The notes under the pieces: model-generated
Told to the model about the DNA's origin: nothing
Databases searched by the model: none
What the model saw: the letters and a program-made list of their open reading frames with translations, nothing else
Made by a program: the position numbers and the translations under genes
Part shown: in pieces, positions 17,399 to 33,438 of the stretch
How the letters are laid out: each line of letters starts with the position of its first letter
How positions within the stretch are numbered: the stretch's first letter is position 1
Assembly: GCA_018902385.1 (NCBI GenBank)
Contig: JABSSW010000010.1
Coordinates: forward strand, 744,001 to 808,000
Reading direction: 5' to 3'
Source: Physcia stellaris
Taxonomy: Eukaryota; Ascomycota; Lecanoromycetes; Caliciales; Physciaceae
DNA length: 64,000 nt

Positions 17399-20300
17399 AT
17401 GACCACCATCAAGCCTCTCGAGGGCCGCACTGTAGGCGATTTCCTAAAACGTATATATTGAAATCAGTGAGAGGTAACGAAATCTTCTGTCACAGGTTCA
17501 TCAGATTCAGTCAGGACAAGTCATTGTTGATCTGTGTTCCGTGGTCAAGGAGCTCGTGGAGAACAGCTTGGATGCTGGTGCTACAGCTATCGGTAAGCCT
17601 GATGAGGTCCGAGTAAGCATTCAATGCTCACTTTCGGGCAGATGTCCGCTTTAAAAACAATGGTTTGGACGCCATAGAGGTTCAAGACAATGGCATCGGC
17701 ATCTCAAGCGAGAACTATGAGACCGTCGGCAAGTCTCTTTCGAGGAAAGGCTGGCAATGTGCTTATTCGAACAAACAGCGCTGAAACACTACACCTCGAA
17801 GCTCACGAATTATGATGATCTTACGACCTTGCAAACCTTCGGCTTTCGTGGAGAAGCACTGTCCTCTCTCTGCGCTCTTTCAAATTTCTATATCATCACG
17901 GCTAAAGTTGAGGATGCGCCAAAAGGTACTAGGCTAGACTTTGAGATATCTGGAAAGCTGAGGAACACGCAAGTCGTCGCTAGTCAAAAGGGCACGACTG
18001 TTGCTGTTGAGAATCTTTTCCAGAATCTGCCTGTTCGGAGGAGGGAACTCGAGAAAAATATCAAAAGAGAGTATGGCAAGGTTCTCGGCATACTGCAAGC
18101 ATATGCTTGTATTAGTACTGAAGTTAAGCTCTCCGTAAGCAATGTCATGGCGAAAGGGAAAAAATCCATCGTCTTTGCGACCAAGTCAAATCCCACAACC
18201 CGAGAAAACATAGCGAATGTGTTTGGTGCCAAGGTGTTGCCAGCTCTCATCGGCATGGCTCTCCGCTTTGAAATGCGAGACTCTGGCAAGCCATCACTGC
18301 AAGAGCCCAGCATGGAGACACGTCTGGAGTGAGCAAGTTCCATCCTCTAACAGTATCTAAGAGCTGCCTTGCAGAAGCTAACGGCAAAGGGATCAACAAG
18401 TGCACGTTGTCGGACATGTCTCGAGGCCAGTGTTTGGAGACGGGAGGCAGACTCCGGACCGCCAGATGTTCTTTGTCAATGGTCGACCTTGCGGTTTACC
18501 GCAAGTCGCCAAAATATTCAACGAGGTCTACAAATCTTTCAATGTCTCTCAATCGCCTTTCATATTCGCGAACATACTTCTCGATACTAGTATGACGATC
18601 AGCTGTCCGTGACGATCCGTGTGCTGATGTATCCAGATGCCTACGATGTAAACGTATCTTCAGACAAGAGGACAATTCTTCTTCACGATCAAGGAACATT
18701 ACTTGAGAATCTTAGGGTGAGGACGAGTGCTGAGCAGGCTTTGAATTTTACATTGACCATCTCAGGCTTCTTTGACCGATCTTTTTGAAACACAAGACCA
18801 AACCGTGCCACAAATCCAACAACCCATTCAGAAACTTCCATTATTTAAGCAGTTAAGCATTCAACGTAATACATCGGTAGCAGCGTCCTCTGCGGGAACC
18901 AACGACGAGCCAGGAACAGCCGAAGATGAAGATGAAGGTGAGCCCGGCAATAGAACGTCGCTCGTTGGGGAAGCCCACCCCTTCGCTCAAAGAGTACCAA
19001 GAAACCTTATTGAAGATTTCGCAGGACGCGACTCTCGTGAAAGGACCAAAAATCCAATACCAACAGTTGGAGTACGTAATGGCAGCGAATCATTGTCGAA
19101 GGATAAGCAGAAACTGGTAAGAAGATTGGGCAAAGATAGCAACAGTGTCCATATGCCAGATGAGTACGAGGATCCCCAAAATATTGTCGCATCCAGTACT
19201 TTGGGAGATGATCGTTCAATCCCCGTGCTTGACTTCAACAAGCGTCTGACCGAGCAGCAAGGTATTACTCACGGCCGAATCACGAACTCACCGAGCCTTG
19301 AGGGTGAAGAGATAGAAGACTCTATTCCTTCGATTACTGGCACCCCTAACAAACCTTCCCCAGGAGTTGTGCAAAATGCCTTTGACCGGATGCGGCCGCA
19401 GCGAACACCAACCCAGACAGCAACAATTACCATTGGCGACAAAACCACTACTTCCGTGCTCGGCCCGACTGTTTCCAAAAGGCAGAAGGTCATTCCGAGC
19501 CCTCGTACCCTGGGTGCTTCTACGTCAGTAGCTTCTCCGCGTTTTAGTAGCAGTCTACGTAGCTTTGCTGCTCCGGGTGCGCAGCTTGAGGCCATGAGTG
19601 ACTCACGCCCTAGCCTTTCGCCAACGATAGAGCCCGAACAAGTTGGAGAAAGGAGTGCCCAAAAGTCCGATTCACCTTCAAGCGTATCAGAAAGGTCATA
19701 CCGTGAGCAAAAGAGTCGACAGCAATCTGGAAGACTCGGAAAGGAAAGCGAGGAAGAAGACGGCGATGATGAGGAGCAAGAAGCTTTATCCACCGCGGAC
19801 CAATCTGATGAGGAGTATGTGAATGATGCGGAGAAAAAAGCTAGGGAGGACGCGAAAGTCGCTGCATTGATCCAGCAGGCTGAGGAAGCGGCTTGCGTAC
19901 CTTCTCAAGATAATATCAGACGCGCGAATAAGTTACTAAAAGGTGGAAAACAAAAGGAATCAACAACTCAACTAATCCAATTTATGGACCAGTCTATTGA
20001 GCGGATCGACCAGCAGTTGGACATACTAAGCAAAACTCTACAAGATTTCTCGCAGAAAGACGCCATTCCCAACTCACTACCAGAGCCAGAAGCAGAATCT
20101 CCCGAGGAACGGCTGTCACTCAAGGTCTCAAAGGAGGATTTTTCTCGTATGCACATCATTGGCCAATTCAACCTCGGCTTTATCCTCGCCTTTCGTCCTT
20201 CCCATTCCGAATCCACCTCGGATGAGCTGTTCATCATCGACCAGCATGCCTCAGACGAGAAATACAACTTCGAACGTCTACAAGCCATGACTACTGTCCA

Positions 20301-20931
20301 GAACCAACGCCTCGTCCACCCCCACCTGCTCGACCTCACAGCCATAGAAGAAGAAATCATCCTGGAGAACAACACCGCCCTCATCCGCAACGGCTTCCTC
20401 GTCGACATAGACACCTCAGGCGACTCCCCCGTCGGCCAACGCTGCAACCTCGTCTCTTTACCCATGAGCCGCGAGGTCACATTCGACACCACAGACCTCG
20501 AAGAACTGATTGTGCTCCTAGCCGAGTTTACGCCTTCGCAATCCACGGTCCCGAGACCAACTCGGGTTAGGAAAATGTTCGCTATGCGCGCGTGTAGGTC
20601 CAGCGTCATGATTGGTAAGAGCTTGAGCTTGAGGCAGATGCAAAGACTGGTGAGGCAGATGGGGGAGATTGATAAACCGTGGAATTGTCCGCATGGACGG
20701 CCGACTATGAGGCATGTTTTGGGGATGGGGGCTTGGGAAGGATGGGAGGAGGGGGATGGAGTTGTTGGGTTAGGGGTGGATGAGGATGAGGGGAAGGAGG
20801 TGGATTGGAGGGGTTGGATGAGGGCTATGCGTGGTGAGGATGATGGCGGTGAGGAGGGAGATGAAGAGGATGAATGGGGCATGGAAATGCAGCAAGGAGC
20901 CGAGGAGGACGGAGAGGATTACGACGGATAG
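17399..20931 (+). CDS. PMS1: DNA mismatch repair MutL homologue (PMS1/PMS2 type)
   Basis: Exons 17399..17431, 17496..17592, 17642..17728, 17779..18328, 18390..18589, 18637..18716, 18766..20931; 1070 residues. The GHKL ATPase motifs are all present: [26 protein letters not shown], then [10 protein letters not shown]. The C-terminal endonuclease domain has [14 protein letters not shown] (the metal-binding DQHA..E..E motif), [10 protein letters not shown] and CPHGRP, so MutL-alpha nicking activity should be intact. The middle is a long Ser/Pro/Glu-rich linker. Intron 3 (17729..17778) begins GCAAGT, a GC-AG intron. After the stop at 20929-20931 the same frame stays open and acidic for 43 codons to a TGA at 21061. 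Confidence 0.95.
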
Positions 20932-21597: not shown

Positions 21598-21852
21598 CTA
21601 GTGTTTCCGCGGGTCCGTCTCTCCGTGAACAAATCTAAGCATTTTCTTGAACCATGTCAGGGCTGCTAAATCATTGGATGGCGAATTATACTTTAAGGGC
21701 GGCTGAGGGGTTTTCAAAATTGTCCTGATACGCTTGGCTAGGTGATAATTGTATCGAGATCCTTCCAGAAACGTCAAGCATTTCTGTAGCATTTCCTGTG
21801 CAATAGCTTTTTTAGAACAAAGTGTTTCAACACGAAATATCTCACTATACAA
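21598..21852 (-). other. possible C-terminal gene fragment at the edge of the AT-rich block
   Basis: A minus-strand frame with protein-like composition: EIFRVETLCSKKAIAQEMLQ, CLTFLEGSRYNYHLAKRIRT, ending GETDPRKH and a stop at 21598. It has no ATG and begins exactly where AT-rich sequence starts. The helical pattern resembles the tail of a fungal Zn(II)2Cys6 regulator, but that is a guess. I found no matching upstream part on the far side of the block. Confidence 0.3.
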
Positions 21853-22068
21853 TCAATATCAGTATCAATTCAATACGAAAAGCTTCGATGTCACGATATC
21901 ATTTGTTAATATAAAAATTTACAACGACTTTAAACTTTAAGCGAATCAACGAAAACAACAGTACAAAACATACATTCACGCTAATCAAGATTCGATTGCA
22001 AAATCGTGCGATTCGATCGATTCTCACGCGAAAATGACACTCAAAGTATTGTGTGTCAACGTGAACGT
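21853..22068. other. AT-rich left flank of the fossil element
   Basis: About 216 bp of AT-rich DNA outside the left LTR. It keeps more AG/CT dinucleotides than the element itself, so it looks only partly affected by the hypermutation. The right flank, by contrast, is of normal composition from the LTR border. Confidence 0.5.
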
Positions 22069-22228
22069 TGAAGAATCCAGATAATAAAAACAACAAGAAA
22101 ATCGATATTATGATAAAACACAATTGAGTGATAAAGATGATTAATTTGCTAATTACGATCAGAAATCAGATATGCAATTTGATGACTAATTAGCGATCAT
22201 ATTGATCATAACATTTGCAAACTCTACA
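22069..22228 (-). repeat. left LTR (3' LTR of the element)
   Basis: Aligns without gaps to 32846-33005. It is the more heavily mutated copy: most differences are C-to-T or G-to-A on this side. Confidence 0.85.
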
Positions 22229-22250
22229 TTATTTTCTCTTAGATTTTTTG
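22229..22250 (-). other. putative polypurine tract
   Basis: On the minus strand, AAGAGAAAATAA directly precedes the TGTAG start of the left LTR, the position of a plus-strand primer site. It fixes the element's orientation as minus. Confidence 0.55.
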
Positions 22251-22339
22251 ACTTCTTAATCAGATTTTTTGATCTCAAAGTCATCTGTCATAGCATTTCT
22301 ATTTGTCGTCATTGTAATGAAAGAATCGAATAAATTTCG

Positions 22340-22760
22340 AACGATTTGCGTTCATCAATGATTTCGATCGTAATGCGTTTTTTTCAAAATAAACAAAAAT
22401 CAAAATAAGAAAAATCTGAAATAAATCATCAAGTGATTGCTTCGACTATAATGCGTTTTCTGATCGAAATGAACGTAATGCATTTCTGATCAAAATAAAA
22501 CGAAAAAATAAAAAAAGTCAAAAATAAATCATTAATGATCTCGATCGTAATGCGTTTCTTTTGAAAGATAAATCAAAATAAACGAAAAACAAAATAAAAA
22601 AAATTTGAAATAAATCATCAAGATATGATTTCGATCGTAAAAACAACTTCAATGCGATTGCGAAAATAATGACTTTCGATCGTAATGTGTTTCTTTTTGA
22701 AAAATAAATCAAAATAAACGAAAAATCTAAAATAAATTATCAAGATATGACTTTCGTCAT
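22340..22760. repeat. imperfect tandem repeats next to the left LTR
   Basis: Four to six diverged units of about 80-110 bp, each with a TTTCGATCGTAATGCGTTT-like core (near 22360, 22440, 22540, 22625, 22670) and an AAATAAATCA-rich arm. They lie in the 3' non-coding part of the element. Confidence 0.7.
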
Positions 22761-23699
22761 AGTGCGATGTAGAGTTAATTTTTCAACGCTGTGTCGAAAT
22801 CTTGAATTTTCGTCTTTGAAAATAAAAAATCGTGATTTTCTGTTCGTATAATAATTTTCTTGCTTTTTTTCGTCTTCGTTGTCATTTTTTTTTTTAATTA
22901 TTTTCGACAATTTTTTTGTGTTCACTTTTAAATCATTTAGATACGCTTTGAAAATGTTATTGTTCGTTTTCAACGAACGATTTTGTCGTTTCAACTTTTC
23001 AATTCGTGTACGAAAAATTTTTGTCGATTTCAATCATAATGCGAATTGTTTTTTATTGACAATTTCGTTAGCGATTTGTTTTCGAATCAATTTCATAATT
23101 TTGTTTTCAATCGTTAGTCGAATTTTTTTCATTTTGAACATGAATTTGTCGATTTTACAAACAATGAATTGATAAATCAAATTGACACGCGTTTTTTCGT
23201 TGATTTTTTTGTTTTCGAATGTTTTTGCGATTTTTCGAAACTTTCTCGTAAAAAAATTCTTGTTTTGTTTCAATTGTTTCATACGTTTTTTTTTTATTTC
23301 AATTTTTGTTCGAAACAAATTTGATTTGCGAATTCTATTTTTGAAAAACGTCGAATTCGATTGCTCAAAACTTTTTAAACGTTTATTCGATCATATAAAT
23401 TCGTCGTTGTTTTTTTTAAACATCAAATGATAATATTTTTCGAACAAAACATTTTTAAAATTTCAAACGTATGAAATTATGATTTATCGTTTTTTAATCG
23501 TAAGTGACGTATCGTTGTTTAATTTCAATAATTTTTTTTCGTTAAATTTATTTTTCATGAAAACGTTTTTCGTGACGTGTTCATATTTTTGTTTTTGTTT
23601 TGTTGTCGTTTTTCGTTTTTTTTTTTTTTGTTTTGTTCGATTCAACAATTTTTGTTGTCGATTTTTTTTAACATTTATCGTTTGCTTTTGAAATTTCTG

Positions 23700-23900
23700 A
23701 AAAAAATTTTTTGTGTATCGAGAAAATTTTTTCGTGTTTTTTGCAATTTTTTTCGTGTTTTTTGCGATTTTTTTCGTGTTTTTTGCAGTTTTTTTCGTGT
23801 TCATTGTTTGTTGTTTTGTTGTCTTTTTTTGCTTTTTCTGTTTTTTCTTATTTTTATTTTTTTGTTTTGCAATTTTTTTTTGTTTTTTTGTATTCATTGT
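23700..23900. repeat. low-complexity tandem repeat in the fossil
   Basis: About 30-bp units built on TTTTTTCGTGTTTTTTGC, repeated at least three times near 23720-23805, then T-rich decay. Inside the post-integrase part of the element. Confidence 0.7.
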
Positions 23901-24862
23901 TTGCATAAATGCTTTTTGCACATTGATTGAAAATATGAATTGTGATAAAGTGAATAGAAAAAAAATGTGCGAATTTTTCGCCGTAATGTGTTTTTCAATC
24001 GAGTAATAAAATTGAATTGAATGAAAAAATGATTTCGAAAATGAAAAATTTGATAATTCGTTCATGATACTTTTGTCGATCGCAAAATTTTGTAATTTTG
24101 TGAAATTGAAATGTTTTTGAAATTAAAATTTGAATTGAATGAAACAGACGATTCTATAAAATAAAATTTAATTCGAAATGTTTTGAATCGAAAAACGTAT
24201 CGTCGAAAATTTGAATTGCGCAAAAATAATGAAAATATTGCGAAAATGAATACGGCGAAAATCATCACGTCGTCGCGAAAAAAATTCGCAAAATTGTTAT
24301 CGTTTTGCGTGCATTTCGTTTCGTTCAAATATGTCATTTTGTCATAAATGATTACATTTGTCATCGACGTTTTTAGATTTGAACAGTTTGTAATCGATTG
24401 TTTATTTTGATATTTCGAATTTTACATTTTTCAAAATGAAAATTTAACGTCATCGTGTTTTGAGCGAAATGAAAAAATTCACTATTTTATTTTTTTCGAA
24501 TTTTATTCGAGATTTTTTTTGTCGAATCAAAAGTCGAAAAACAATGCATCGTAAATATTCGAAAATAATAATTTTTGTGAAATTTTTCAATAATGTCGAT
24601 GATGATCGTTTGTCATAAATGATAATTCGTTTCGCGCAATTGTGAAATTTCATTATTTGATTTATTCATTGAAATTCATAATTTGAACACAATTTTTTGA
24701 ATTTTGTGATTCACATTTTGTTTGAAAGTAATGTTAATTGAAATTTTTCAAATGTTATTTTACGACAGATATTTTCGAATTGAAAAATTTCGTTAAGTTT
24801 CGATTTTTATGATGATTTGTGTGATGATATTTTGAAAATTTCTAAGTTTCGAATTAAATGAA

Positions 24863-25019
24863 TGCTGAAAAAAACTGATACGAGCACAGATAATTGCTTG
24901 ATGATTGCTAACTCGCGCTAGATTGATTAGCTGTACTTAAGGAAATTTCTACTCTAGCTAGCAATTCAATTCACTTACATTCATTGATATCGATTCTTAG
25001 TAGCTGACTACTTCTAGCA
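24863..25019 (-). repeat. possible solo LTR, not hypermutated
   Basis: A 157-bp island with ordinary composition (many AG/CT dinucleotides such as CTAGCTAGC) inside the hypermutated block. It begins TGCTGA and ends TAGCA, so its ends are the inverted TGCT...AGCA of an LTR. Minus-strand reading starts TGCTAGAAGTAG. I find no clear target duplication. It seems to have arrived after the surrounding mutation, or to have been spared as a short or unique sequence. Confidence 0.45.
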
Positions 25020-28000
25020 AAAACGTTCGTTCGTTAAAATGTTATCGTCGATTATTTTCGAACACATTTTCAATGATTGTAAAATGAATAATGTAAATTA
25101 TTGTTGCGTCAACGTTTTTCAATATTTTTTTAAAGCATTATGCGATTTCAATCTCGTTTGACTTTCGATTATTGATTGATTAATTGTTAAAAATTCACGA
25201 TTTTTTTTTTATCGCGTCATCAATTTCATTTTGTTTCGTTTTCATAATTATCGATTGAGATATTAAATGATACATTTCATCACTTTTTATCGATTTTTTT
25301 CGTTTTTTTTTTCTCATCGAAATTTTGATCGCTCGTTTGCAATTTTGTTTTTTTAATTTTGATTTTGTTTCGATGTTATTGTTTTACGTTTTGTCGAATT
25401 TGATTGTTTATTTCTGTTATCGATTTTCAATCTTGATTTGAATTTTCGTGATTTTTTTTTCAATTTATAATTTAACATCGTTTATCGAATATCGTTTTTT
25501 GACTTTTTCGATATACATTTTTTTCAGTCAAAAACTCTTTTCATGTTGCGTCAATTTGTGAACAATATACGAATTTTTTCATTTTGTTTTCAATTTGTGC
25601 GAATGTTGTTTTTTTTGCGTCAAACGTTTGAACTTTATCAAGCATTTCGTTGTAATTGAATTTTTTGACGTTTTTTTGTTTTTTTTTTAATCAGCATTTT
25701 TTTTGATTAAATCGTTTTTTCACGACTGTATTGCGTAATTCATTCAGTTTAAATAATCGTTGTTTAAACGCAAACTTTTCAATAATTAATTTTTTTTCAA
25801 TATTTGAAAAAAAGATTTTCTTTAAAATAACATTTTTTATCATTTTCATTCGCAATGAATTTTCGTAAAATGCATTCTCGATAAAATATTTAAATTGATA
25901 ATCGAACAATATTTTCGTTGAAAAAAATTCGTATATGCGAATTAATTTAATATTGATTGCATTCACAACGTTAAATAATAACAAATTTCATTCGAAAATC
26001 ATTTTTGAATAATGTTGTAAAATTGCGCGAAAACAATTCAAAATGAAACGATTGTATCGTTCGAAAAGTTTTACAAATTGAAAATGCGAAATCGAAACAA
26101 AAATTTGTCGTATTTTACGATGTGATAAATATTTTGAAAATAATTTTTTAAAATGCGTTTCATTATCGTGATATACAATTTTTGAACATTCGAATACGTT
26201 CATCATCTTTTTTCGAAAAACATGACAAAATTTTCAGAAATTGCGTTTGACATTGCGTTCGCGAACAGAAATCGACACATGTAATCGACGTCAATTTGTA
26301 TAAATTTCGTTTCATTTTTGACGATAAAATTGATCGATTTCAAATAATTTGTTTCGACAAAATCGAATGATTGAATGAAAACAATAAATAGAAATTTCTC
26401 AATCGATTTTAAAAAATTCAACATTTGACAATTCGAATATGAACGACAAAATTCAAAAATATTTTTAAATTTAATCGATCAATAATATTTTTCGATTGCT
26501 TTGATTTGTGTAATTTTTTTCGAAAAATGTTCACATACGTTGTACAATAAAACAAAAATTTGAATCATTTTTTCGATATGAAAACAACGATTATAACGTT
26601 CGAATTTTTCGATGTACGTCAATTTTTTAAAATTTTTGACTCAATTAAAAGAAATTTTTAATTTTTTTCTTTAACATTTTATGAATTGTTTCAAGCAAAA
26701 AACTATTCGATTTAATGACATTTCGAATTTTGTATTTCACTATGTTCGCATATCAGAAATCGTTTAATTATTTTTGTTAAATTATTTTTCAATTTTTTTT
26801 CGTGATAGAAAATGTATCATCATTCGTCGTAATTGAATTTTCTGTTATTTTCGACAAATGATTCGCTAAAAGAAAAAAAAAATTATTCAACAAAAATTGT
26901 TCGTCATTTGTCGTTGTTGAATCGTCTGTGACAGAAAAAATCATCATCGTAAATTCGAAATTAAAAAGCGATGAAAATGAATAATTTATGATTTTCGACA
27001 AATCGTTTGTTATGATTAATTTTTTTTTTGAAACATGAATGATATTCAAATTAAATTTCGATAACGTTAATTGTCAACGAATTATTTTATTTGTTGTATT
27101 TTTGTTTTTCAGACATTTCGTTAATGTTGAATGATTCGTGTACAATTTGATCGAATATTGAAAATTTTGTATTAATTATTTGATTTCTGTCAGACATTTC
27201 ACGATTGCTAATGTTTTTTTTTCAGTAATTTGATATTTGATTTGTGAAAAATTGTATTGATAATTTAAAAACATCATTATTTGCATGTCGTTCAGAAATT
27301 TTTTACGATGAACGATTTCAAACGAATAATTATCAAATTGAAATAAAATTTCGTTTGTTTCAATTTTAAAAACGTCGATAGCAAAATGTCATTGACGTGT
27401 ATCATTTTCGTTTGAACATATGATTTTCATAATTGTTTTTTTAATTTTTTGAAACATTCGTTCATGATTGAAAATTCACAGAATTTTTTTTTTTGCTTAA
27501 CATTTTGTTTTTTGTCATTTTTCAAAATGATGATTGTTTTTTTCATTATGATCGTACGAAGAAAAAAAAATCGATCGACGCGTTTAAAAATGTATTCTTT
27601 AAAAAAAAATAACATGTACAGAAAACGTTTCAATTTTTTTTTACAAATAGACGAAAAATATTTTCTAAACATTTTTATTTTGTTTTCATTGAGTTTAATG
27701 TTTTTAAAATTTCGTTTATGTTCTAATAATTGTATTTTGAACGTGAAAAATTCGCATTTTTTGAAATTTAAAGTAAATTTTGTTCATATTAATCTTGAAA
27801 AATAATGAATATGTAAGAAATTAATCAATGTTTGTAAAATGTCGAATTTTTTTACGTCGTCATCAATAAAGTGATTGAATATTGAATGTTCAAAATTCAC
27901 ATTCGATAAAGCAAATTCTGAATTCGATTTTGATATATTGTTTGTAACAATATTCTTTAGCTGAAAATATGTTTCAGATTTTTCTGTTGTATTCTGTTTC

Positions 28001-31000
28001 ATTTTAAAATAACAATAAAATTCAATGATCGTATTGATGTCAAACTTGTACGCATGAAAAAAATGAACAAAAATCGTTCAAAAATCATTCGTCGCGTTCG
28101 TTTTAAATAGATATTTGACGAAAAATTGTGTTAAATTTCTGAAAATTGATTCGATTTTACGCATTGATTGATTCGCTTTGATAATGATTTCGTTTAAATC
28201 ACAAAAAACATGCATCATTTTCAATTTTTCATTTGATTTTCGAAAAAATCGTGTTTTTGAAAATCAAAAAAAATTGCATTTCATGATGATTTCAATTTTT
28301 TTTAATAATAAAATATTTTTTTTCTGTCATTTCACTTTTTCTGCTGTGTAAAAAACAAATTTAATTATTCGCGAAATGATATGTTAATACGTTGAAATTT
28401 TGTGTTCAATTAAATTCGTAAAAAACATGTTTTTAATATTCGTAACAAAGACGTTTTTTCAAATTTCTAATAAACAATGTATTTTATGTTTTTTTTGATT
28501 CGTAACGATCAAGTTTTTCATCAAATTTGAAAAAGTTTTCAATCATAAATTGAATTTTTTTGAAATTTTTGTTAATAATTTTTTTCGAAATTCGATTGAT
28601 TTTTTGTTAATAGAAAAACTCATTTTTTTTTTCAAAGATTTTTTTTTCATCATGTATTTGCATCGAGATTTCTTGATGAGTGTTTACGACAAAAAAATTG
28701 AAAACGAAATTTTTTTTTTCAAACGATGATTTTGTTGATCATTTTTGATAATTTTCGATCATTTGTATTTGCGTTTTTTGAAATTTGATTTTCGTCGCAT
28801 TTTTAATCGAATTTCTCATTTTATGTTCGAATTTTTGTCGACAAACGACTTTTTCGTTTTCGTCGTGTTCAATTTTTATTCACATCGTAAACAAATGATT
28901 TATGATAAAAAATTTGAAAAGCATTTTTTTGTCTCGTCATTCATTTTTTTTTTTCGAATTTATTTTTGTCGTCAAGATGTTTTTCGAAACAAATTTACGT
29001 CGAATCTTTTCTATAACAGAAAATTTTGATGTCATAATGTAATTTGTCGATATTTCAATTTTTTAATGATAATTTACGTAATTGATTTTATCGTTTTTCA
29101 TTTTTAACAACGTTTTTGTCAATTTTTTTTTTGATTTTTTATTTTTCGATCATATATCGTCGTTTTTCATTTTGACGTCGACATCATTTTTTTCGATTTT
29201 TTTTGATTTTGTTGAATGATTATTTTCGTTCGTTTTACGTTTCAATGTCGTGAAAAAAACATGATTTTTTTTTGATTTGCGTTTTTTTTCAAATTTATTT
29301 TCATCATCAGATTAATTTTCTCGTTTCACATTTCTTTTTCAGCTTTTTTTACGATTTGTCGAAAAAATTTTTCAATTTTTTTTTTTTTCGTATTTCAAAT
29401 CAATGAACGTTTCGACATCAACATTTTGCGTTAACGCAACGTTCATTTCAATTTCGTATATTTCTTTTCGATTTTTTTTTCGAAATCAGACATTTTTATC
29501 TTTTTGTAATTTTTTGCAATCGCGTTTTTAATTTAATATTCGTCAAATTCGTACAAATCGATTGCGATCACGTTTTTCAATCACGATTTTTTTAAAATTA
29601 TCGAATAAATCGTTTTTTCTGACACAATTCAAGTTTGTATCACACGATTAATTTTTGTCGTGACGATTTTCAATTTGATATATTTCGAAAAACGAATTTT
29701 GTTTTCGTTTGTTATGATCATTGTCATAAATTTTTTCGAATATGTGATTTCGTTCATTGCGTAAAAAACTCGTTCAGAAATGAAATTCAATGTAAAATTC
29801 GAATCGACAAGCATTTTTTTGATATTTCAAATATTAAACAATGATTTGCGAAATTTGATCATCGTTTGAATGTAAAAGTTTTTCACTAAAAAATTCGTTA
29901 ATAAAATTTGAAATGAAACAAAATTAATGAAACGACGATAAGATTTTTTGAAATCGTTTGTTGAATTTTTTGCGAAACGTTTCATGCGTTTGTAAAGATT
30001 TTTTGATTTCATCGTGTATCGACGTAATGAATTTGATCGAAACACATTGTTTTTTGTCATTTCATGAACATGATTGATTTTTTTTATTTGTTTTGCAAAT
30101 TGTACATTCTTTTTGTTTTTTGTCGTAAAGAGTTTTTTTTTTTTTTTCGATTGAAATTTGATTGTAATTTTATTGCGTTTGTCAATTGTGTTTTTGTTCG
30201 CGAAATCATGATTAATAATTGTTTCAATTCAATGTTAATGTTGATATTTTTTATTCAATCATTGAAATCAAACATTTTTTCGTTTGTTTTCACAACTTTT
30301 ATGAATTGTATTTGTGTTTTATTTTTTGTTGTTCGTTTTTATTGAATTTTTTGTATGAGCGAAATCAATGAAACAAATAACGCATTCGAATTATTTCGTA
30401 TCGTTTTCGAATTCGATGATTTATTTTTCATAATTTCATCGATAAAATCAAATTTTTCAAAATTTGTAAAAGATTTCGATGTTTGATTTTGTTGAAATCG
30501 ATCATTGTTGAAATTTTCAATGCGACGAAACATTTTAATTTTGAATTTATTTTGATTCATCATTTTTTTCAAAATGAAATTTTGATCAGTTTCGTATTCG
30601 ATCGCATTTCTTTTAACGATCAACATTTTTTTTTGTTTTCACAAAATTCGCATTGATTGTTTTGATTCAAATACATTTGTTCATCGTTTAAATTTCATTC
30701 GTCGATCATTTTTTGTCATTTTGAAATATCATGAATGTTTGTTGAATAACAATCGTGCTCGATCATAAAAATTTTTGTCGTACGAAATTTTTTCGCAAAT
30801 GATATTTGTTGTGTCGTCGAACGTTTTTTTTTTTCATTTTTTCGAAACAAACGATTTTTATTTTTTTTAAACGTTTGAAAATGAAAACATTGTCTGAAAA
30901 AATGTTCGATTTTTTCACAATTATAACAAATAAGAAAATTGACATTGTTAAACGACGTTGCAAATGATGCAATTGCAAACGCGTAATACAAAAAATGTTG

Positions 31001-32845
31001 TAAATTTTTTTTGAAATTTCTATTTTGCTGTTTTTCATATTTTTGATTTTGATATTTTTGTTGATTATTTCGATTTTGATTGTTTTGATTTTGATTTTTT
31101 TGATTGTATTTTTGTTTTTCTTGATTGAATGCATCATTACGATAAAAAACAAAAACATTTTCGACATTTTTTTGTTTTTCAAATTGACGCTTTTTGAATG
31201 ATGTTGAAACGTTGAAATCGACAAATTGTCGAATAAAAATCGAAATGATTTTGTTGTTTTGATTTAAAATGATTGCAAACATACGATTTTTTGAATTCAT
31301 TTTTCGTTGTAATTTCGTTATCGAATTTTTTTTATTTTGATTTTCGATAATATTTTTGACTAATTTGACAGTAATTTCAAAATCGTACGTCGAATTTTCT
31401 TTTTGTGCAATATTTTTTTAACGATTTTTTCGTCATGTCATCGTTCAATTTCGATATCATTTTGTATGACATTTGATTTTGTATTTTTTTGAAAAATATT
31501 CGTTGAATTTTTTTCGCTTTTTCAACATATTCATTCAGCGACTTTTTTAATTGTTTAAAATTATATAATGCATTTAAAGTCGATTCGTATTCAATTTTTT
31601 TTTTTTAAAAAATTTTTTTGCGAAAATTTTCTTAAGAACATTTCAATTTTTTATCAAAATATTTTTTTGATCATTAATTCATTTGATTGCGTTTTTTTTA
31701 ATCTTGAATATCACGATGTAACATTGAAAAATTTTTTTGTTTTTCGTGTTTAATTGTGATTGAATCAAATATTGAATTTCGATAAATCGTAATCATCGAA
31801 AAAAATTTTCCGAAAAATATTCGTGAAAATTCGAAATTTGTATGATTTTCGAAAACATTTTTTTTAAATAATCAATTACGACAAACGTTTTTAACGTATT
31901 GATGTTTTTGAAAATGATAAATTGCTTCGTGAAATGTTGTAAAAATATTTTCACAAAAATCGTTTTACGATGAAAATGAAAAATTTTTCGTTGAAATTGT
32001 TTAAAAAATGAAATCAATTCGTCGATGAAAATGAAAATTCGATTTTTTGATTTTGAAAATTCAATAAAAATAGCGAAACTGTTTATCGCAAAAAATTTTG
32101 ATGAATCAATAAATTCAATTGATGATTCAAATATCGAAATGATTGCGAATGTTGAAATAATTTCGAAAAATTCGTTTTTCAATGTTTTGTTATTTATCGA
32201 CATTGAAATTATTGATTTAAAAACAAATAATTTAATTAAATTTCATAAACGAATTTTTTTCGTCTGTTTTTTTTTTCGAATTTTGTACAAATCAAAATAA
32301 AATTTATGTCAAAATTCGACTTTGACATCAATTTATTTTCAGAAAAAAATTTATGATAAATGTTTTCAATTTACTTCGATAAAATAATTAAAAAATGATA
32401 AATTTTTAAAAAAAAAATTATGACAAAATGTTTTTTTTCAATCGTTGAAAAAATCGATCAACGAAAATGTTCATTTTTCGAAAAATGCGAATTCGATTGA
32501 TTTCGATTAAAATCGATTATGATAAAATTGTCAAAATTGATAACGAAAAATGCGAATATTTTCGAATAAACAAATCGATGATAAATAGAATGAATTGTTG
32601 AATGATTTTGCGATGTGATAAAATCGTAATTTTAATAATTAATGTAGTAATTGTGAATGATGTTTTTGATGATGAATAATCGTTATTGTATTGTAAATTT
32701 TGAATTTTGACGTTTGACGATTTTCAAACTTTTTTATCGTAATTTCAATTTCATTCGACGTTTTGTACTTTCGTGACATTCAATTTCGAATCTTGATTGC
32801 GAATCAATGATAGAAATTTAAATAATTTTTGACTAAATCATCAAA

Positions 32846-33005
32846 TGAAAAATTCAAATAGTAGAAACAACAAAAAAATCGATATTATGGTAGAACACAG
32901 TTGAATGATAAAGGTGGTTAATTTGTTAGCTACGGCCAGAGGCCAGATATGCAGTTTGATGACTAACTAGCGGCCATACTGGCCATAGCACCTGCAGGCC
33001 CTACA
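32846..33005 (-). repeat. right LTR (5' LTR of the element)
   Basis: The less mutated copy, retaining GGCC and CCTGCAGG-like stretches. Similarity to the left copy ends sharply at CTACA (33005), and normal-composition DNA starts at once. Confidence 0.85.
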
Positions 33006-33438
33006 GCGTGCTCATTGATGCGTGCGCATGCCTCTGATCTATGCGCTCCAGTCCGGAGAACCCCTCAAAGTTTAAGGTTGAACCTAGCAAAATTTAAGGT
33101 TGATTTCCCGAGACTAGCGTATTTTCTCTGAAAAAGCTCGCCAAAAAGCAAATTCCTCTCGAGAGCCTTGTATATGTGGCAGATTTTGAGTGTTAGAGTA
33201 TCTCGATATCTTCTCGAGGTACTTGATTGGGCGAAATTTCGCTAATCAGAAAGCCTACTAATTATCTCCTGGTATTATTTGTAAAACCCCCCAGGCGTCC
33301 TTAAAGTATGCCCCATGGGCGTGAGATGTGACTGGGCCCGCTTTGGAAAACGTTGCAAGATATACATTAATGCTTGATCCTATTCATACAACTCCCTACT
33401 ACAGTGGAAAAAGCGAATTGTGCATGCCCTTGAGATAC
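33006..33438. other. spacer between fossil and nitrate porter
   Basis: Single-copy-looking DNA of normal composition; holds the 3' region of the porter gene. A short AAGGTTGA-containing motif is repeated near 33073 and 33095. Confidence 0.5.

Follow-up and report, generated by a model that had tools for sequence, protein, structure and literature searches.

A long terminal repeat (LTR) retrotransposon in the genome of Physcia stellaris, a lichen-forming ascomycete (Lecanoromycetes, Caliciales; genome GC content 43.32%, Nanopore and Illumina reads; PMC7513301), is densely mutated from C to T where C is followed by C or T (CpY). The element resides in a window of 64,000 nucleotides, positions 744001-808000 of contig C10 in the 44.0-Mb assembly. 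An original prediction, made on the window alone, had proposed a hypermutation at CpC and CpT similar to repeat-induced point mutation (RIP). The same mutation is found in several repeat families, on many contigs and on both strands, the 3' neighbour of the cytosine setting the target. Direct observation covers the targets and their contexts, the symmetry between strands, the confinement to repeats among the tested loci, and the consequences for codons. Very probably, a RIP-type process with a 3'-base preference almost reversed relative to that of Neurospora has inactivated the repeats of P. stellaris. In our judgement the process works like RIP; the usual CpA mark was tested for and is absent, and full membership in RIP is not claimed.

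Mutation contexts in the element and in related copies

The two 160-bp LTRs align without gaps. Their differences, about 33 in the hand count of the original prediction, are exactly 33 and all transitions, 15 at CpC and 18 at CpT (or the complement), with none at CpA or CpG and no transversions. CpY accounts for 47 of the 107 C sites, and the chance of finding all 33 changes there is about 2e-12. The left copy carries most of the changes, as had been noted (27 vs. 6 in the right copy). In the interval 26281-26600 the plus strand holds 17 CpG, 18 CpA, 2 CpT and no CpC, vs. 14, 14, 2 and 0 counted by hand. Over 22069-32845, where the GC content is 23.8%, the numbers observed (expected from composition) are CC 3 (131), GG 2 (178), CT 152 (524), AG 120 (442), CA 516 (380), TG 745 (611), CG 516 (152) and TA 613 (1523); CpG is 3.4-fold and CpA 1.4-fold above expectation, and TpA is depleted. 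CC and GG sum up to 5, vs. a minimum of 234 in 1000 mononucleotide shuffles. The classical RIP index is positive in none of twenty 1-kb windows of the element. Since CC, GG, CT, AG, CA and TG are found at about 0.8-1.25 of expectation in the 2-kb bins of the flanks, and other unmutated DNA is also normal, a background composition bias was rejected.

The reference for six mutated copies (Table 1) was L033 (C5:1165500-1168500), a piece of an unmutated retrotransposon that belongs to a different family, with 960 open codons and a match to the RVT_1 domain. In the 1984 bp compared with L039, 431 C-to-T or G-to-A changes face 10 reverse transitions and 7 transversions, and the strands agree (CpC 97/110 and 117/119, CpT 106/150 and 99/129). 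Only one of the CpC sites still carrying C in L039 retains the second C, the rest having turned into CpT. In the other five copies changes hit 90-98% of CpC, 72-94% of CpT, 6-15% of CpA and 4-9% of CpG sites. The sparing of CpA and CpG put forward in the original prediction thus holds for the LTRs of the window, where neither changed; in the six mutated copies the two contexts are hit at low rates (CpA 3-15%, CpG 2-9%), CpA more than CpG in five of the six. CpA as the main mutated context, which would have told against the proposal, was found neither here nor in LTR pairs.

Table 1. C-to-T changes in six mutated copies relative to L033 (changed/total sites)
Copy	CpC	CpT	CpA	CpG
L039	214/229	205/279	8/251	4/246
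L028	347/354	337/359	43/360	12/332
L014	161/164	103/115	22/144	5/136
L042	215/230	201/279	14/253	19/248
L040	214/239	211/279	23/251	22/246
L041	208/216	228/261	25/240	15/224

In the comparisons with L033 it is the 3' base that decides whether C changes to T, the 5' base having little effect. The triplets changed are TCA 2/93, TCG 1/91, CCA 1/61, CCG 0/55, ACC 50/53 and GCC 56/61; in the most mutated copy TCA 14/116, CCA 14/101 and GCA 10/93.

Six elements with LTRs about 10.5-11 kb apart were also compared, LTR matches without a clear partner being omitted. The pairs differ by 85 CpC, 71 CpT, 10 CpA and 3 CpG changes and 9 transversions (a further difference, the last of 179, falls on an end position and was left unclassed), CpY thus making up 156 of 169 transitions. 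In three pairs (window, C14 and C5) all 72 changes are at CpY. The least diverged pair, C5:465221, features 11 CpC and 4 CpT changes, at 30 CpC and 41 CpT sites present. Old, saturated copies behave differently. L035 and L037 differ by 114 CpA and 93 CpT changes and 304 transversions, L028 and L041 by 56 CpA, 49 CpG and 40 CpT changes; in such pairs, where almost no CpY remains that could differ and older divergence becomes visible, CpA differences can equal or exceed CpT differences. Pooled alignments of mutated copies (177) give CpC 1520/1845, CpT 22659/27855, CpA 10181/64103 and CpG 5181/50790, figures which are weak evidence, as the pairs are non-independent, old divergence lifts CpA and CpG, and an overlap of about 5 kb between L015 and L016 adds conserved sites.

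Restriction to repeats and effect on codons

GC-poor DNA was monitored in 47 loci, most of them picked by repeat matches: 294 of 303 GC-poor 500-bp windows hold at most three CC+GG, and none of the 303 is positive by the classical RIP indices. Because of that choice of loci, 20 further samples of 1.5 kb were taken at round coordinates. The pattern is missing in 17, among which L046 shows a milder dip (CC/GG 0.59), and is present in three, all AT-rich and multi-copy. One of the three (L055, on C19) is mutated only in its first ~1.17 kb and has one strong partner, on C9, which is mutated likewise; in both, GC content and CC/GG are normal again where the shared stretch stops. Unmutated samples and the flanks of the element are free of the CpY bias, which thus is not a property of unmutated DNA at large. 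Of 20 loci selected through LTR matches, 16 contain a segment in which both CC and GG are no more than 0.15 of expectation; the other four are the unmutated L029 and the short right-end pieces L021, L023 and L027. Genes for 5S rRNA gave eight matches above the cut-off, and the four fetched have 16 CC+GG each, a normal figure which selection could explain as well.

CpY mutation on either strand changes TGG into TGA and leaves CAA, CAG and CGA alone. Within 150 scored RVT_1 matches (of 527 candidates) the stops are 250 TGA, 33 TAA and 3 TAG, TGA being the sole stop type in 112 of the 140 matches with stops, a dominance which fits CpY targeting, since TGG to TGA is the predicted outcome. In L039, compared with L033, all six TGG became TGA, no stop arose from 27 CAA/CAG or 14 CGA codons, and all 22 Gly and all 35 Pro residues were changed. 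Much the same holds for the other five copies, the exceptions being three CAG to TAA and two TGG to TAA in L028, one TGG to TAA and one CCA to TGA in L014, and one CGA to TGA in L042. In the intact copy, 121 of 955 codons (12.7%) encode Gly, Pro or Trp; copies L035-L042 hold open pieces of 218 or 264 aa with none of the three residues. A Pfam search with three mutated open pieces was negative.

A protein search with one Gly/Pro/Trp-free piece returned 215 fragments; as the query favours proteins of similar make-up and the length limits exclude intact polyproteins, their counts show existence elsewhere, not frequency. Among the 120 fragments listed, 104 contain less than 2% Gly+Pro+Trp and 69 neither Gly nor Pro; 37 of the 39 fragments P0195-P0233 are devoid of Gly. 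Public protein sets thus contain numerous long fragments nearly free of Gly and Pro (among P0195-P0314), which are probably open pieces of hypermutated retrotransposons. Some Gly-free fragments keep Trp, and we suspect that this is perhaps the work of gene callers reading TGA as Trp. No DNA of relatives was found in the viral contigs searched. In a more distant group (79 pairs), Pro of the less mutated members is replaced by Ser, and Gly by Asp or Glu, in the more mutated ones. Reference and target rows were picked by Gly/Pro content, so that this loss is partly by construction; the retention of His (95%) and Gln (94%, with Gln lost to a stop escaping notice) is not. Arg is kept in 74%, the changes being to Gln, His, Trp and Cys, a sign that in that other organism CpG may be a target as well.

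Proposed process, alternatives and candidate enzymes

In the process that we favour, both strands of multi-copy sequences would be swept by C-to-T mutation, CpC changing nearly always, CpT mostly, CpA rarely, and CpG little over background. It would act on duplicated DNA during the sexual phase; P. stellaris bears abundant apothecia, and hence is sexual (PMC7513301). The enzyme may be a C5-methyltransferase-like protein, probably of class I (RID/Masc1), and the chemistry either methylation followed by deamination, or direct deamination.

Several observations weigh against this explanation. CpA is nearly spared, although it is the usual RIP context, and TpA is depleted. CpA and CpG, the minor contexts, cannot be ranked firmly, CpG changes exceeding CpA changes in L042 (7.7% vs. 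5.5%). The LTR pairs C10:309154 and C8:399403 feature transversions too, with 3 and 6 CpA changes, respectively. The best aligned piece of the C19/C9 pair differs by 23 CpT, 13 CpA and 3 CpG changes and 11 transversions, no CpC being left to differ. Finally, L033 and L034 (C12:59300-62300) are 95% identical over 3 kb, and neither is mutated at CpY. As these duplicates escaped, the process is either not immediate or does not catch all copies. L033 and L034 were themselves rejected as a RIP pair, their 149 mismatches in 2978 bp being spread across all contexts (121 synonymous and 13 missense codon differences).

A vegetative mutator dependent on DIM-2, as in Zymoseptoria tritici, with preference for CpY and working in mitosis rather than as sexual-phase RIP, is unlikely, but is the alternative with most in its favour. 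A DIM-2-like gene is present in P. stellaris, dim2-dependent CA to TA mutation occurs in mitosis, and DIM-2 of N. crassa preferentially methylates CT (PMC8016269). The known Z. tritici version, however, hits CA, and the 93-98% of CpC sites changed in the two closest comparisons fits a strong sweep, slow accumulation being conceivable. Shielding is less probable still: a mutator with no CpY preference of its own would leave the same pattern if cytosines in CpA and CpG were protected, for instance by 5-methylation blocking a deaminase of unmodified C, and three methyltransferase genes are available; yet long-lived 5-methylcytosine at CpG should deplete this dinucleotide, which is in 3.4-fold excess in the element.

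Damage or editing apart from RIP was also considered. Ultraviolet (UV) lesions at dipyrimidines might be invoked, or else the action of an APOBEC-like deaminase on the cDNA of retrotransposons, given that lichens live in the light and that most of the targets are retrotransposons. Both UV and APOBEC-like editing favour a 5' pyrimidine, yet TCA, TCG, CCA and CCG are largely spared while ACC and GCC are changed, both strands are hit about equally, and single-copy DNA is unaffected; the L033 context counts contradict both sources, which were rejected as scarcely credible. Equally negligible is the view that TGA encodes Trp in this genome, and that the TGA codons are not mutations. Stops within RVT_1 matches are mostly TGA (250/286), but the intact copy is open with TGG codons, and Gly and Pro residues are changed in L039 as completely as TGG codons. 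The L033/L039 codon comparison led us to reject the reassignment.

The RIP-type process is best set against known systems. As in N. crassa, C-to-T changes are dense in repeats on both strands and have sharp edges, and a RID-class gene is present. Short dispersed 5S genes, spared in N. crassa, look intact in Physcia too, though selection could account for this. In N. crassa, however, the order is CpA>CpT>CpG>CpC (PMC5496416), vs. CpC>CpT>>CpA, CpG in Physcia, where TpA falls rather than rises; RIP acts in the premeiotic sexual phase and depends on rid and partly on dim-2, features which the Physcia process may share. Trichoderma reesei also mutates C to T in duplicated DNA with a preference of its own, CpA and CpG being about equal and ahead of CpT>CpC (PMC5496416), but its two preferred contexts are the two spared in Physcia. 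RIP signatures at CpA, CpT and CpG, according to species, have been linked to methyltransferase classes (PMC4352252). Transposons of Botrytis, Sclerotinia and Magnaporthe feature CpT changes, and one or two copies of a class I gene are present, as in Physcia; there, in contrast, CpT accompanies CpA (PMC4352252, the main text of which does not mention CpC). CpT changes were found beside CpA also in Stagonospora and in Tad1 of N. crassa by RIPCAL (PMC2621366), CpC to TpT double changes alongside classical CpA RIP in Monilinia (PMC8959702), and CpA is reported as less preferred in Monacrosporium haptotylum (PMC3828140). The Z. tritici mutator shares with the Physcia process C-to-T changes in transposons, tied there to a methyltransferase, but uses the CA context (PMC8016269). 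The CpG-biased RIP-like mutation of basidiomycetes, and CpG methylation of the type of methylation induced premeiotically (MIP), are likewise associated with repeats and C-to-T changes, but Physcia spares CpG. Among single-nucleotide polymorphisms of Rhizoctonia solani AG8, described by the authors as CpG-biased, CpC is tabulated as the most closely spaced single class (PMC4014442). MIP of Ascobolus, defined by repeat methylation without mutation, does not apply to the densely mutated repeats of Physcia.

Mutated AT-rich repeats are found in other lichenised ascomycetes. In Cladonia rangiformis repeats peak near 16% GC, and RID and DIM-2 homologues have been reported (PMC12542154; CpA, CpC, CpG and 'dinucleotide' do not occur in the main text). 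Endocarpon pusillum, unlike Physcia, shows the classical index, with a TA/AT ratio of 1.47 in repeats (PMC3897900). The main text of the P. stellaris genome paper does not contain the term 'point mutation' (PMC7513301). A 2025 k-mer survey of 1,239 fungal genomes found RIP-like defences to share a preference for CpA (PMC12543289; no hits for CpC, lichen or Physcia in the main text). No report of RIP with CpC as main target was recognised among the papers that the literature searches listed, a minority of which were opened and in which subscription papers were mostly not included. The Physcia pattern nearly reverses the reported Neurospora order, and departs from the CpA preference shared in the survey.

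Methyltransferase genes, which the original prediction had suggested looking for, are present: a six-frame PF00145 scan of the genome gave four matches, belonging to one DIM-2-like gene and two that are RID/Masc1-like. The DIM-2-like gene, on C3, features Pfam DUF7893 and PF00145, with BAH under the cut-off; its best solved relative is 9bap. RID-A is on C5 (P0001, 932 aa), a contig from which a methyltransferase piece is 98% identical to a P. stellaris protein. RID-B is on C6, its frame interrupted by apparent introns; among the relatives of RID-B is a Heterodermia aff. obscurata protein of 524 aa. Class I (RID/Masc1) was assigned by similarity and by a tree. RID-A and RID-B fall in separate, well-supported parts of this tree (103 proteins entered and 101 kept, out of 194), in which RID-B is represented by its first exon only, and which carries long-branch warnings. 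The loop after PPCQ is mostly S-D-AHT in the rows shown for the RID-A group, SPAQ...KP.DFEDKQ in most rows of the RID-B group. RID-A and the Heterodermia relative of RID-B share the same best PADLOC model, orphan methyltransferase. RID-B, set apart from the other class I group by its catalytic loop, may be taken, tentatively, as first suspect for the mutator enzyme.

A lineage of lichen fungi might have switched its RIP enzyme to CpC/CpT, perhaps via a RID-B with altered loop, so that the change would not be confined to one species; Gly/Pro-free reverse-transcriptase fragments in other public assemblies are the ground for this possibility, which we regard as doubtful. If true, the switch would be a natural change in 3'-base specificity which removes Gly, Pro and Trp codons and is invisible to CpA-based surveys. 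With a natural variant that has two class I enzymes, the determinant of the base preference of RIP becomes testable. As stops arise in the main only from TGG, mutated genes stay open longer, and enter protein databases as Gly/Pro-free fragments. Tools based on the classical indices would score the Physcia repeats as RIP-free; since these indices miss the CpY pattern, it may be worth applying a context-free test to other genomes in which RIP has been reported absent. On a rough estimate, the share of the genome affected may be as high as a quarter, given a GC content of 43.32% overall, vs. about 50% for unmutated DNA and about 25% for mutated repeats; the check on round coordinates gave 3 of 20 samples.

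Features of the element and of its left flank

The features of the element are listed in Table 2. The minus orientation is suggested by the putative gag-like remnant, whose zf-CCHC match is weak (E 0.0094, 16.4 bits, under the curated cut-off of 20.8). A Pfam search of 27430..27783 gave no match. The left end of the element has 28 matches in the genome, on many contigs. In the right LTR, CC/GG is normal in the right part, as in the flank beyond.

Table 2. Parts of the retrotransposon and adjacent repeat (window coordinates)
Feature	Position	Strand	Basis
LTR-type retrotransposon	22069..33005	minus	direct terminal repeats 10.8 kb apart, related copies, dinucleotide counts
Left LTR, heavily mutated	22069..22228	minus	carries 27 of the 33 changes between the LTRs
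Right LTR, lightly mutated	32846..33005	minus	carries 6 of the 33 changes between the LTRs
Open stop-to-stop piece, putative gag-like CCHC zinc knuckle	30719..31417	minus	Pfam zf-CCHC match
Open piece, putative C-terminal part of reverse transcriptase	27430..27783	minus	own reading, by eye only
Separate repeat on the left side of the element, mutated part	21801..22068		GC 28-37%, low CC+GG

The stretch low in CC starts near 21801, at a distance of about 270 bp from the left LTR on its outer side: CC+GG are 0, 0 and 1 in the 100-bp bins from there, 9 in each of the bins just before. The DNA at 21700-22068 is a separate repeat, found at 15 places in the genome, and GC-poor only from about 21801, nearest the element. 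Relative to an unmutated copy, 21801-22068 is changed at 17/32 CpC, 6/37 CpT, 7/63 CpA and 2/30 CpG sites, with 47 other differences.

ACGT on the left (22061-22072) and GCGT on the right (32998-33011), one CpT-type change apart, may be a 4-bp target-site duplication. Just inside the left LTR, the interval 22352-22756 features imperfect direct repeats of about 60-75 bp (families D4 and D7). An open frame at 18772-20931, about 1.1 kb left of the element, features a MutL C-terminal domain, of the mismatch repair type.

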